Shown piece after piece: positions 4,736-45,514 of a stretch of 64,000 nt of DNA. Numbering within the stretch: position 1 is the stretch's first letter; each line of letters begins with the position of its first letter. The position numbers were made by a program, and so were the translations under genes. The notes below the pieces were generated by a model. That model was not told the DNA's origin. It worked only from the letters and a program-made list of their open reading frames with translations, and did no database searches. Origin of the DNA: Microcaldota archaeon (lineage in GTDB: Archaea > Micrarchaeota > Micrarchaeia > Micrarchaeales > CABMGC01); contig JAJZKO010000004.1 in assembly GCA_021850805.1 (NCBI GenBank), positions 1 to 64,000 of the forward strand. Reading direction: 5' to 3'.

Positions 4736-4810
4736 AGCGAGGTAGGGTAGCCTGGAGTGCCCGCCGGGCTCATAACCCGGAGATCGGTGGTTCAAATCCA
4801 CCCCTCGCTA
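4736..4810 (+). tRNA. tRNA-Met(CAT), initiator type
   Basis: AGCGAGG/CCTCGCT acceptor with A1-T72; anticodon arm CCGGG-CTCATAA-CCCGG (three G-C pairs next to the loop); T-arm GGTGG-TTCAAAT-CCACC; no intron. Confidence 0.93.
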
Positions 4811-8674: not shown

Positions 8675-8700
8675 GCCAGCAAACCTTAGGGTTTGCTGGC
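8675..8700. repeat. Perfect inverted repeat/hairpin GCCAGCAAACC-TTAG-GGTTTGCTGGC
   Basis: 11-bp perfect stem with a TTAG loop, intergenic between DUF92 and agmatinase. Confidence 0.9.
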
Positions 8701-8770
8701 CTATTTCTATAAAATTATATCCTCTCACATGATTAAATATATTTGTACTGAAAATCCAACATGTGATCCG

Positions 8771-9649
8771 ATGGAACTTAACAACCCCATGCCAAAATAC
8801 AACCTATTCGGGGTGGAAAACCCTGAATATTCAGAAGCCCAGGTAGTCGTCCTTCCGGTTCCTTATGACTCTACGACAACGTACAAATCCGGTGCCAGGG
8901 ACGGCCCGCATGAGATAATAAGCGCAAGCAGGAACATGGAAACGTATAGTGAAGAGTTCGGATGCGACATAACCGAGAAGATAAGGATCTTCACTACTGA
9001 CGAGCTAGCCCCTAACCTCAATTCCCCAGAAGAGACTGTAAGGTCGATAGAGGAGGAAGTGTCAAAGATACTGAAAGACGGAAAGATGCCCGTGCTCCTT
9101 GGGGGTGAACATACAGTAGCGGTAGGTGCTATATATGCGGTATCAAAACACATGAAGGATTTTAGCGTAATACACTTCGATGCACACTCGGATTACAGGG
9201 ACGAATACATGGGCAGCAAATACTGTCACGCATGCATAATGGCAAGGGCGAGGGAGAGATGTGATAGCTGCTTCAGCGTAGGCGTGAGGAGCATAGACGA
9301 GACAAGCGCAACAAAATACGGCAAGGACATACTTTACAGAAAAGACATGCACAACATGACCATAAAAGAAGTGTCCGAAGAGATAATCAGAAGAACAAGG
9401 AAGAATGTCTATATAACCATAGATACGGATGTGATAGACCCATCGCAACTGCCCAGTACAGGCACCCCGGAACCAGACGGATTAAGCTTCTTTGAGCTCA
9501 CCCAGATACTAAAGAGCGTTATAATCGAAAAGCACCTTGTAGGGATAGACTTCAACGAGTTGGCTCCAATAGGGGGACTGACAGCCCCGAATTATCTGGT
9601 AGCAAAACTGGTGTACATGGCCCTGGGTTACGCATTCATAAAGAACTAG
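8771..9649 (+). CDS. speB: Agmatinase / arginase-family ureohydrolase
   Basis: GGEHTVAVGA, HFDAHSDYRDEY and TIDTDVIDPSQLPSTGTPEPDGLS metal-binding motifs; start uncertain (8693, 8729 or 8771). Confidence 0.92.
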   Translation: MELNNPMPKYNLFGVENPEYSEAQVVVLPVPYDSTTTYKSGARDGPHEIISASRNMETYSEEFGCDITEKIRIFTTDELAPNLNSPEETVRSIEEEVSKILKDGKMPVLLGGEHTVAVGAIYAVSKHMKDFSVIHFDAHSDYRDEYMGSKYCHACIMARARERCDSCFSVGVRSIDETSATKYGKDILYRKDMHNMTIKEVSEEIIRRTRKNVYITIDTDVIDPSQLPSTGTPEPDGLSFFELTQILKSVIIEKHLVGIDFNELAPIGGLTAPNYLVAKLVYMALGYAFIKN

Positions 9650-9656
9650 GGATCCA

Positions 9657-10505
9657 TTACGGATGAAGACCCGGGGTCTTATTGTACATCGAGAAAAGTG
9701 CCAGATGCTCATCAGGGTTGTAATACTTTAGCCTGCCGTCCAGACCTGCTATCCTCTTTGATATCTCGGTTGGGCTTATGGCCTTCGGGTCCCTGTCCTT
9801 GGAAGCAAGGATAAGGGTGAAGACCATGCTGAATCCAGGCATGTAGAAATTCATGGCTCTTACCACTGGAAAAACCTTTTTCAGGTAAACAGGCATCTGT
9901 GAGTAATCCCAGCCATTTTTCTTCAGGTCCCATCCAAGCGTCACATACACGCCGTCTTTAGTCAGGCTCCTGCTTATCTGCCTTGCAAACTCTTCGCTGT
10001 AAACTTCTGTTGCTATTGACACCTGGTAAGGGTCTATAAGATCCCCAAATATCACATCATACTTGGTCTTTGTCTTATGTACAAAATCTATCGCATCACC
10101 TATGACAAGGTTGACACGCTTATCCTTGCGCTTCAATGCATACGGAAGATATTTTCTGCATAAATCAACCACCTCGCCGTCTATCTCGACCCAATCAATT
10201 GATACATCCTTATATCTAAGGAGTTCGCTTGCTGTAGTCCCCTCTCCGCCTCCGAGGATCAGCGCCTTCTTCGGGTTCCGTACAGTAATCATGGAAGAAT
10301 GGACAAGCACCTCATGATACACATGGCAGTCTATCTCCGAAGACTGTATTACGTTGTCAAGGGCAAGGAATGTCCCTATCGTTGGGCTTCGCGCTATCAG
10401 AACATTCTGAAATTTAGTCCTGCCAAAATGAAATACCTTGTCTACCTCCCTTACAGTAGAAGATCCATAAGGTGTGGTCTCGCTGAAAAGCAATCCTCCT
10501 CTCAT
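9657..10505 (-). CDS. speE: Spermidine synthase-family polyamine aminopropyltransferase
   Basis: FLALDNVIQSSEIDCHVYHEVLVH; LILGGGEGTTASELLRY; DLIDPYQV. Confidence 0.92.
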   Translation of the reverse strand: MRGGLLFSETTPYGSSTVREVDKVFHFGRTKFQNVLIARSPTIGTFLALDNVIQSSEIDCHVYHEVLVHSSMITVRNPKKALILGGGEGTTASELLRYKDVSIDWVEIDGEVVDLCRKYLPYALKRKDKRVNLVIGDAIDFVHKTKTKYDVIFGDLIDPYQVSIATEVYSEEFARQISRSLTKDGVYVTLGWDLKKNGWDYSQMPVYLKKVFPVVRAMNFYMPGFSMVFTLILASKDRDPKAISPTEISKRIAGLDGRLKYYNPDEHLALFSMYNKTPGLHP

Positions 10506-10632: not shown

Positions 10633-11055
10633 ATGCCTGAGACAAGAGCGTCACAGAGGACAAAGACTATAAACAAAAGAGAGCTCGTTACTGGCAAGCA
10701 CGTATACGGCAATCTTTATGATATCAGCCCTGAGCTCCTTTACGATACGGAACTTCTATCCAGGATAATATCCGAATCAGCAAAGATAGGCAACATGCAC
10801 ATCGTGGAAACAATAGTCAAGAAGTTCCAGAACCTCAAGGGCGGAATCGACGGCGGCGTCTCTGTAATAGCCCTGATAAAGGAAAGCCACATAACCATAC
10901 ACACATGGCCTGAAGGTAATTATGCCGCTGTGGACGTCTTCTCCTGCGGCCAGCAGAGCAGCCCGGAGAAAGCATTCGAGTACATAATACTCAAACTGAA
11001 GCCGAAGACTTACAAGATGTTCAAGGCAGACAGGGGCAACACGGTTCCTACCTGA
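10633..11055 (+). CDS. speD: S-adenosylmethionine decarboxylase proenzyme
   Basis: VIALIKESHITIHTWPEGNYAAVDVFSCG including the E-S self-cleavage site. Confidence 0.93.
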   Translation: MPETRASQRTKTINKRELVTGKHVYGNLYDISPELLYDTELLSRIISESAKIGNMHIVETIVKKFQNLKGGIDGGVSVIALIKESHITIHTWPEGNYAAVDVFSCGQQSSPEKAFEYIILKLKPKTYKMFKADRGNTVPT

Positions 11056-24017: not shown

Positions 24018-24139
24018 TGGCGGGGGCGAGATTTGAACACGCGACCTCTAGATATCTTAGCAATCACAGCAAGTTGCTCATCACTCAAAAATGCTTTGCA
24101 TATGAGTCTAGCGCTCTAACCAGGCTGAGCTACCCCGCC
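24018..24139 (-). tRNA. tRNA-Met(CAT), elongator type, with predicted 47-nt intron (24054-24100)
   Basis: Acceptor GGCGGGG/CCCCGCC; anticodon stem CTAGA/TCTAG, loop CTCATA[intron]A; BHB-like CTCA-TAT-GCAA...TTGC-TAAG-ATA; T-arm GCGTG-TTCAAAT-CTCGC with one mismatch. Confidence 0.82.
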
Positions 24140-40353: not shown

Positions 40354-40450
40354 GCAGGGATGGCGGAGCCAGGTCAAACGCGGCAGACTCAAGATCTGTT
40401 GACTTAGGTCTGCGGGAGTTCAATAACAAGAACAAATCTCCCTCCCTGCA
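40354..40450 (+). tRNA. tRNA-Leu(CAA) with predicted 12-nt intron in the T-loop (40424-40435)
   Basis: Acceptor GCAGGGA/TCCCTGC; anticodon loop CTCAAGA; variable arm GAC-TTAG-GTC; T-stem GGGAG/CTCCC enclosing 19 nt TTCAATAACAAGAACAAAT. Confidence 0.88.
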
Positions 40451-43425: not shown

Positions 43426-43731
43426 TCAGCGAAATATATGCCTTTCAGCTCCGCAAGCGCATTTGTATACTATATAACCTTTGCTGCTGGACAGCCTCAC
43501 CGTGCATGTCTCTCCAGGGATGAGTACGTCGCCACATCCTTTGCATATGGAATCCTTAAGCCTCTTCGGCATCTTTACCTTATAGTGCCTGCTTATGGAC
43601 CTGGCTATCTCAACATATCTCTTCCTGAAAGCCTGTGAGCCGCAGGTTATCTCCCTTGATTTAGCCAATTCAATAAGCCCTTCAATCCTTTCTGCCGCAA
43701 TCTCCTTGACAAACTGGGATCCCTTCTTCAT
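43426..43731 (-). CDS. rnp4: Ribonuclease P protein component 4 (Rpp21/Rpr2)
   Basis: RKRYVEIARSISRHYKVKMPKRLKDSICKGCGDVLIPGETCTVRL...YKCACGAERHI. Confidence 0.88.
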   Translation of the reverse strand: MKKGSQFVKEIAAERIEGLIELAKSREITCGSQAFRKRYVEIARSISRHYKVKMPKRLKDSICKGCGDVLIPGETCTVRLSSSKGYIVYKCACGAERHIFR

Positions 43732-43734
43732 GTG

Positions 43735-44052
43735 TTAAACCTCAACAATTATCTCTCCGCTTGAGGCGTCCGCATAAGCCGCGTAGGATCCTATATCTGT
43801 AGCCCAGTGGGTATTATCATTCGCCTTGCCGGTCTTTATGTCAAAAGCTGCAGCGTGAAGAGGGCATATGACCTCGCAGCCATCAACATATCCTTCACTA
43901 AGCGATCCGCCCTCATGCGTACATTTGTCGTCAAGTGCGTATGGGGTGCCTTCCTTTAAAGTTATAAGAATCCTCTTGCCTCCAGCTTCAAAAGCCCTGA
44001 GCTCCCCATCTTTTAATTCAGATATCCTGATCCCGGTATTATACTTGGCCAT
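43735..44052 (-). CDS. Rieske [2Fe-2S] ferredoxin-like protein
   Basis: CTHEGGSLSEGYVDGCEVICPLHAAAFDIKTG (CxH...CxxH). Confidence 0.9.
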   Translation of the reverse strand: MAKYNTGIRISELKDGELRAFEAGGKRILITLKEGTPYALDDKCTHEGGSLSEGYVDGCEVICPLHAAAFDIKTGKANDNTHWATDIGSYAAYADASSGEIIVEV

Positions 44053-44064
44053 GGCAACATCTCA

Positions 44065-44152
44065 TGGGCCCGGAGAGATTTGAACTCTCGACCTACGGCT
44101 TTCTTAATTCCTATATAAGACCGTCGCTCTGACCAGGCTGAGCTACGAGCCC
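44065..44152 (-). tRNA. tRNA-Ile(TAT) with predicted 13-nt intron (44101-44113)
   Basis: Acceptor GGGCTCG/CGGGCCC, discriminator A; anticodon stem ACGGT/GCCGT; loop CTTATA[TAGGAATTAAGAA]A; T-arm GAGAG-TTCAAAT-CTCTC. Confidence 0.8.
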
Positions 44153-44218
44153 AAGTATTAAATATCACTTACGCAAGCAAAATATAAATACTGGCATAAA
44201 CTTTTAAAAGGCTTGCAT

Positions 44219-45514
44219 ATGGATCTCGGCGAAGGGTTAAGGAAAGCTTTGGCAAAACTGTCTGGCGCAACGATAATAGACGCGAAGACCATAAGGGAAT
44301 TCACAAAGGAGATGCAGAAGGCCCTAATTTCCTCTGATGTGGACCTGAATCTAGTCCTTAAGATAACCAATAAGATAGAAGAGGCGGCGCTGAAGCAGAA
44401 GATACCACAGGGCCTATCGCCAAAGAACTACATAACAAATATGGTGTATGAGGAGCTGGTAAGCCTAATGGGCGAGACATACGAACCCCAGATCAAGCCG
44501 AAAAGAATACTCCTTGCAGGAATCTACGGCTCTGGGAAGACAACGTCAGCAGCAAAGCTTGCCAAGTTCTATCAGGACAGGGGCCTTGGGACAGGGCTTA
44601 TCTGCTGCGATACATCCAGGCCTGCTGCTTACGAACAACTCAAAACGCTTGCCGAGCAGGCAAACGTAAGCTTCTATGGCGAAAAGGACGGAAAGGACAT
44701 AGCATCTATAGTAAAGAATGGGCTGGAAGCGCTCAAGCAAAAGAAAGTCATAATATGCGATTCCGGAGGGCGCAGCGCAATAGACCACAACCTTATAGAA
44801 GAACTGAATCTCATAAACAAGACCTTCAGGCCTGAAGAGAAAATACTGGTACTCAATGCGGACATAGGGCAGGTAGCAGGCAAGCAGGCCGAAGAATTCA
44901 ACAGGGCAATAGGGATAACAGGAGTGATAGTGACAAAGATGGACGGCTCGGGCCGCGGCGGTGGCGCACTAAGTGCAGTCAGCGCATCTCAATGCAAGAT
45001 AAATTTCATAACAACAGGAGAGAAGCTCAAGGACATAGAGCCATACGATTCAGGCAAATACATAGGCAGGCTCCTCGGGATACCAGACATAGAACTATTG
45101 ATAAAGACCGTCAATGAATCCCTTGCAGAATCAGGGATAGAGAAGGACAGCGTAGATATGGAAAAGCTTACATTCGATACATTCTACAAGCAGCTAAAGG
45201 CCATGTCAAAAATGGGTCCGATGAAAAGCGTAATGGGGATGATGGGCCTCGTAGATCTACCTAAGGATGCTGTAGAGACAGGAGAGAAGAAGCTGAAGAT
45301 CTACGAATCAATAATAAGCTCGATGACCAGAGAAGAGAAAAACGAGGAGGTTCAGCTGAGCCAGAGCAGGATAAAGAGGCTTGCCGCAGGCAGCGGAAGG
45401 ACGGAGAAGGACGTACGAAGCATGATAAGCGACTTCAACAGGATGAGGAAACTCATAAACACATTCAAGAACGACAGGAACCTGAAGCGGAACTTCAAGT
45501 ATGCGGCACAATAA
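44219..45514 (+). CDS. srp54: Signal recognition particle GTPase SRP54
   Basis: ILLAGIYGSGKTTSAAKLAKFYQ; CCDTSRPAAYEQL; VTKMDGSGRGGGALS; Met-rich M domain. Confidence 0.94.
   Translation: MDLGEGLRKALAKLSGATIIDAKTIREFTKEMQKALISSDVDLNLVLKITNKIEEAALKQKIPQGLSPKNYITNMVYEELVSLMGETYEPQIKPKRILLAGIYGSGKTTSAAKLAKFYQDRGLGTGLICCDTSRPAAYEQLKTLAEQANVSFYGEKDGKDIASIVKNGLEALKQKKVIICDSGGRSAIDHNLIEELNLINKTFRPEEKILVLNADIGQVAGKQAEEFNRAIGITGVIVTKMDGSGRGGGALSAVSASQCKINFITTGEKLKDIEPYDSGKYIGRLLGIPDIELLIKTVNESLAESGIEKDSVDMEKLTFDTFYKQLKAMSKMGPMKSVMGMMGLVDLPKDAVETGEKKLKIYESIISSMTREEKNEEVQLSQSRIKRLAAGSGRTEKDVRSMISDFNRMRKLINTFKNDRNLKRNFKYAAQ

Follow-up and report, generated by a model that had tools for sequence, protein, structure and literature searches.

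How an archaeon reads the isoleucine codon AUA without also reading AUG is a question for which agmatidine, introduced by TiaS, is presented as the archaeal solution, with two published exceptions. The question is raised again by a tRNA gene of a Microcaldota archaeon, lying in the 64,000-nucleotide stretch of contig JAJZKO010000004.1 that was analysed here as a whole (the window), in which a short intron interrupts what appears to be a UAU anticodon loop. On the evidence set out below, a tRNA-Ile with a true UAU anticodon very probably replaces the route through agmatidine-modified tRNA-Ile2 and TiaS, and AUA would be read directly. The gene and its surroundings are as follows.

44065–44152 (−): pre-tRNA-Ile(UAU) gene, 88 nt (RF00005, 60.0 bits; sequence)
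44114–44152 (−): 5′ exon, tRNA positions 1–37 (covariance-model alignment)
44115–44117 (−): anticodon UAU (positions 34–36), in a 7-nt loop CUUAUAA once the 13-nt intron is removed
44101–44113 (−): 13-nt intron UAGGAAUUAAGAA at 37/38, with a bulge-helix-bulge (sequence; the minimum-energy precursor fold has the helix)
44065–44100 (−): 3′ exon, position 38 to discriminator A73 (covariance-model alignment; comparison with tRNA-Ile(GAU))
44181–44190 (−): TATA-box-like TATTTATATT, a candidate promoter recognized by eye, 29–38 nt upstream of the tRNA 5′ end
43735–44052 (−): Rieske [2Fe-2S] protein (PF00355, E = 1.2e-16), starting 12 nt past the tRNA
43426–43731 (−): RNase P subunit Rpr2/Rpp21 (PF04032, E = 2.5e-15), same strand, next downstream
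44213–45514 (+): SRP54 (PF00448, E = 3e-61), divergent neighbour

The Rfam tRNA model aligns to 44152-44065 (−) with an E-value of 1.8e-10, its score standing well above the gathering score of 29, and the gene is thus a cloverleaf tRNA that reads GGGCTCG-TAGCTCAGCCTGGTCAGAGCG-ACGGT-CTTATA-(TAGGAATTAAGAA)-A-GCCGT-AGGTC-GAGAG-TTCAAAT-CTCTC-CGGGCCC-A, the intron being in parentheses. All four stems are paired, with U-G at 5:68 and 31:39. ARAGORN calls a tRNA at the same place and gives its anticodon as a non-standard “atat”, evidently because the intron is not placed by this program. In the precursor, a CUUA/UAAG helix is flanked by a 5′ bulge UAU and a 3′ bulge AAA, and an inner A-U closes a GGAA loop. 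The minimum-free-energy structure given by RNAfold (-29.4 kcal/mol) contains the anticodon stem, the CUUA/UAAG helix and the AAA bulge, so that the precursor is predicted to carry an archaeal 37/38 intron with 3-nt bulges and a 4-bp helix. Splicing endonuclease would excise 13 nt between positions 37 and 38 of this canonical bulge-helix-bulge, leaving, on paper, the loop CUUAUAA with the UAU anticodon. An earlier note made from the sequence of this DNA had the coordinates, the intron length, the anticodon and this same bulge-helix-bulge right.

The spliced tRNA is of the isoleucine type. It shares 62 of 75 positions (83%) with the genome's own tRNA-Ile(GAU), compared with 51 of 75 for either tRNA-Lys(UUU) or tRNA-Lys(CUU), its T arm and acceptor 3′ end are the same as those of tRNA-Ile(GAU), and A73 is present; the choice of Ile over Lys made in the earlier note is thereby confirmed. 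The tRNAs for Lys and Ile are similar in appearance in archaea, and this resemblance, together with the anticodon that ARAGORN could not assign, might be taken to mean that the gene encodes an unusual tRNA-Lys or some other tRNA, with the intron misplaced and a mature anticodon other than UAU. Such a reading is hardly credible given the exact match to tRNA-Ile(GAU) in the T arm and acceptor 3′ end, the two tRNA-Lys genes encoded elsewhere in the genome (UUU, L010; CUU, L005), and sister genera in which an intronless orthologue has an uninterrupted CTTATAA loop. With these intronless orthologues the anticodon is established whichever splicing model is adopted.

A tRNA-Ile reading AUA directly would stand in for tRNA-Ile2(CAU) and the agmatidine made on it by TiaS, and both were looked for. 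With a limit as loose as E<=1, the TiaS domain model PF08489 (TiaS_FLD) matched nothing in the own genome. It likewise matched none of 295 phylum genomes, the 96 of high quality included, and none of 49 named genomes of other DPANN archaea picked for carrying a UAU tRNA, while Methanocaldococcus jannaschii, H. volcanii, S. acidocaldarius and M. acetivorans, used as controls, were positive each time. The own genome is a metagenome-assembled genome of 83.7% completeness, so the argument for the absence of TiaS is carried by the phylum survey. Only two tRNAs with a CAU anticodon were found in it, both for methionine and neither of the Ile2 type.

4736–4810 (+): initiator tRNA-Met(CAU), with A1-U72 (L012)
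24018–24139 (−): elongator tRNA-Met(CAU), with a long intron (L021)

Across 99 genomes, a CAU pattern with an elongator-type D arm likewise matched elongator-Met types only and none that is Ile2-like. Micrarchaeota as a whole appear to lack both TiaS and a tRNA of the Ile2 type. This agrees with the earlier note, which had suggested that TiaS may be lacking and had named a TiaS gene plus a CAT tRNA-Ile as what would speak against it; neither turned up in these searches. Could both nevertheless be present and missed, the UAU tRNA being an extra or decaying gene? An incomplete genome or a divergent TiaS could explain non-detection at 83.7% completeness with PF08489 as the sole model, but this is very improbable in view of the 0/295 result, the CAU matches devoid of any Ile2-type tRNA, the anticodon loop retained over many families, and AUA as the dominant isoleucine codon. 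The window also carries polyamine genes (arginase/agmatinase family, 8693-9649; spermidine synthase, 9657-10505; AdoMet decarboxylase family, 10633-11055), which were set aside as a sign of agmatidine, since such genes do not imply it.

The elongator tRNA-Met gene has a feature of its own. In most Micrarchaeales its intron (24139-24018 (−) and orthologues) carries the element TATGAGTG-ATGA-GC..GC-T-ATGACGA, which is antisense to A31-A37 of its own tRNA and has D′-like and C′-like boxes at a spacing for which C34 fits the N+5 rule. This intron is a candidate cis-encoded guide for Cm34; the copy in the window has one mismatch.

The UAU tRNA is not an oddity of one genome: it is a phylum-wide and DPANN-wide trait. 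A pattern in which a YUUAUR loop comes after a D arm, and for which the reversed-pattern control gave about one match, was found in 223 of the 295 phylum genomes and in 79 of the 96 of high quality. A relaxed search of the 17 unmatched high-quality genomes recovered one more (G073), leaving 16 of 96 in which no UAU tRNA was recognized, among them G009 (genus g58), rated 100% complete; perhaps the tRNAs of these 16 genomes were missed through extra introns or altered D arms. Named carriers belong to Micrarchaeota, Diapherotrites, Woesearchaeota, Pacearchaeota, Nanoarchaeota and Aenigmatarchaeota. Matches with intact loops were also seen in bacteria, namely WWE3, Parcubacteria, Akkermansiaceae, Dehalococcoidia, Verrucomicrobiaceae, Meiothermus, Thermus and WPS-2 (loci L079, L090, L094, L100, L108, L134, L159, L160 and L169).

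Isoleucine codons in the open reading frames of the window are AUA 1190 times, AUU 215 times and AUC 181 times, and since AUA thus makes up 75% of the 1586, the gene at 44065–44152 probably encodes the main isoleucine tRNA. The mean AUA share of isoleucine codons is 0.69 at the Micrarchaeales loci versus 0.41 in the other families sampled.

There are precedents for such a replacement. Nanoarchaeum equitans and Korarchaeum cryptofilum, already cited in the earlier note and rightly so, have a UAU tRNA-Ile in place of Ile2/TiaS (PMC8450103; PMC6000648); neither has tRNA-Ile2(CAU) (PMC8450103), and the K. cryptofilum gene is intron-bearing and resembles tRNA-Ile(GAU) (PMC6000648). The tRNA described here is like this tRNA-Ile3(UAU) in its anticodon, its isoleucine type and the lack of a tRNA-Ile2(CAU). 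Those cases were, however, published as two isolated species, whereas here most surveyed genomes of a phylum have the UAU tRNA, which spans DPANN with repeated loss of the intron. The canonical archaeal tRNA-Ile2(CAU)/TiaS system serves the same codon, AUA, but here the searches for TiaS and for an Ile2-type tRNA came back empty. No report of a UAU tRNA-Ile for Micrarchaeota or DPANN at large was found in the open-access literature searched.

What, then, is the intron for? Among high-quality genomes in which the tRNA was recovered as a matched string, with the window's own genome added, it is present in 16 of 18 of the window's family, 10 of 26 of the sister family (the other 16 being intronless) and 30 of 30 of the other families. 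Loss is concentrated in the window's order, Micrarchaeales, and many UAU tRNAs of Diapherotrites are intronless as well. The intron is dispensable: intronless close relatives exclude an absolute need for it in the window's order. Beyond the splicing motif, the 13-nt intron of the window has no conserved element.

Other introns were noticed in these surveys. Some UAU tRNAs of family f7 (L046, L047, L048, L056, L065 and others) contain, besides the first intron, another one in the T loop that often has a (CC)TTTTAGGAAAAG hairpin, and short T-loop introns are apparent in a window tRNA-Leu at 40354-40450 (+), which ARAGORN missed, and in a tRNA-Arg of the same genome (L037). UAU introns of Pacearchaeota and Nanoarchaeota (loci such as L086, L096, L105 and L141) share an element close to AATTCRTTAGAATT, which is unrelated to the D-arm complement described below.

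In yeast, the intron of tRNA-Ile(UAU) is needed for formation of Psi34 and Psi36 by Pus1 (PMC4090602; PMC11408192), and it also prevents ncm5U34 (PMC11408192). The archaeal tRNA is like the yeast one in its UAU anticodon and 37/38 intron, and by this precedent the intron might have been kept for anticodon modification, as would suit the other families, where every recovered UAU tRNA is intron-bearing. Against this, the TruA/Pus1 family (PF01416) was found in none of 99 Micrarchaeota genomes, with 12 of 14 controls positive, many relatives in Micrarchaeales and Diapherotrites do without the intron, and the window copy has nothing conserved past its splicing motif. Retention for modification is therefore quite unlikely; a eukaryote-like Pus1 route is rejected by the PF01416 result and a strictly intron-dependent modification across the phylum by the intronless relatives, and it is unlikely that U34 avoids AUG by eukaryote-type Psi34/Psi36. 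An opening of the D arm by the intron for archaeosine formation at G15, as in lambda-form tRNA, was also considered and rejected, TGT being present in only 2 of the 99 genomes (G004 and G005).

In the other families of Micrarchaeota the intron does have a conserved 5′ part, approximately YGRC-N-CGYTCTRRYACA, which is complementary to the 3′ strand of the D arm. The first ~14 intron nucleotides are predicted to pair with this strand (9 bp, at about positions 18-26), and the intron GRC with exon G30-U31-C32, leaving a loop UUAUAY that holds the anticodon. Examples of intron and D-arm partners are UUAGAGCG with CGUUCUAA, UCAGAGCG with CGUUCUGA, and GGCAGAGCG with CGCUCUGUC. In 60 distinct sequences, unselected for pairing and all read in a single, fixed register, pairing holds for 84.6% of cells, versus 36-50% when the register is slid; the covariation score is 0.241 versus 0.173 in shuffled sets (0 of 500 reaching it), and the 25 two-sided changes are confined to two pairs. 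When introns are permuted among D arms at the two covarying positions, a test that controls relatedness in part, the native combination gives 107 of 120 versus a mean of 80.6 and a maximum of 93; when each family and D type is represented by a single sequence, it gives 40 of 44 versus 31.4, a value reached by none of 20,000 shuffles. By RNAfold, which allows no pseudoknots, with splicing-motif pairs permitted in the canonical fold, the helix fold is more stable than the canonical anticodon-stem fold in 14 of 14 relatives, by 2 to 14 kcal/mol, and lies within 0.2 kcal/mol of the minimum in 13 of them, several of these precursors having T-loop introns and a cut 3′ end. RNAalifold did not predict the hairpin de novo from the 60 sequences; what supports it are pair counts in register, permutations and folds of single sequences. 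In the fixed register the helix is not seen in families f6, f10, f17 and f18 and in part of f11. Nor is the pairing a general habit of introns, as ten elongator-Met introns did not show it (p 0.38 to 1). The window copy does not form it: its intron matches the D-arm 3′ strand over 4 nt at best, no better than shuffled sequences, and its alternative fold is 5 kcal/mol less stable than the canonical one.

The distribution of Elp3 invites one explanation of this hairpin. Elp3 is present in 47 of 47 genomes of the other families and in 0 of 52 of Micrarchaeales above the cut-off, a split that coincides with that of hairpin loss; Elp3-type cm5U appears to be unavailable in the window's order. The hairpin might thus shield U34 from Elp3, with Micrarchaeales losing it after Elp3 was lost, much as the yeast intron also prevents ncm5U34 (PMC11408192). 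The split of the phylum is, however, a single evolutionary event, the hairpin is missing from some families that have Elp3 (e.g., f6), and a near-complete Diapherotrites genome (L130/G329; 15 contigs, 1.24 Mb) has both an intronless UAU tRNA and a clear Elp3 (43-44% identity over ~500 aa, E ~1e-120). Elp3 therefore forces no intron in general, which contradicts the shield as a general rule and makes it rather unlikely as an account of the hairpin.

With shielding and modification weighed, what is left, we infer, is a switch in folding or timing that would operate ahead of splicing. The intron of pre-tRNA-Ile(UAU) may be an antisense copy of part of its own tRNA, forming an alternative hairpin that acts as a maturation switch and was lost in the window's order; we put this forward tentatively, at somewhat less than even chances, for most Micrarchaeota families outside that order and for some Woesearchaeota and Diapherotrites. 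In the alternative hairpin the anticodon would lie in a 6-nt loop and the D stem would be gone, and it would compete with the splicing fold, so that the switch would act on modification or on timing prior to splicing. Such a hairpin would be built into the very tRNA that needs to tell AUA from AUG. Haloarchaeal tRNA-Trp has an intron that carries a box C/D guide. The introns of the relatives, not that of the window, can likewise pair with their own tRNA, but they target the D arm and have no visible C/D box. Unlike the replacement of Ile2/TiaS by a UAU tRNA, known from N. equitans and K. cryptofilum, the intron:D-arm hairpin would be new if confirmed, no report of it having been found in the open-access literature searched. 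If real, it would be an unusual case of a tRNA intron refolding its own tRNA.

For the decoding of AUA, the supposed near-universal archaeal rule of TiaS breaks down across a large archaeal branch. What had been an exception is the normal state in one phylum and probably in much of DPANN, in genomes whose main isoleucine codon can be AUA. The question is thereby sharpened to how a UAU anticodon avoids AUG without TiaS, without Pus1/TruA and, in the window's order, without Elp3.
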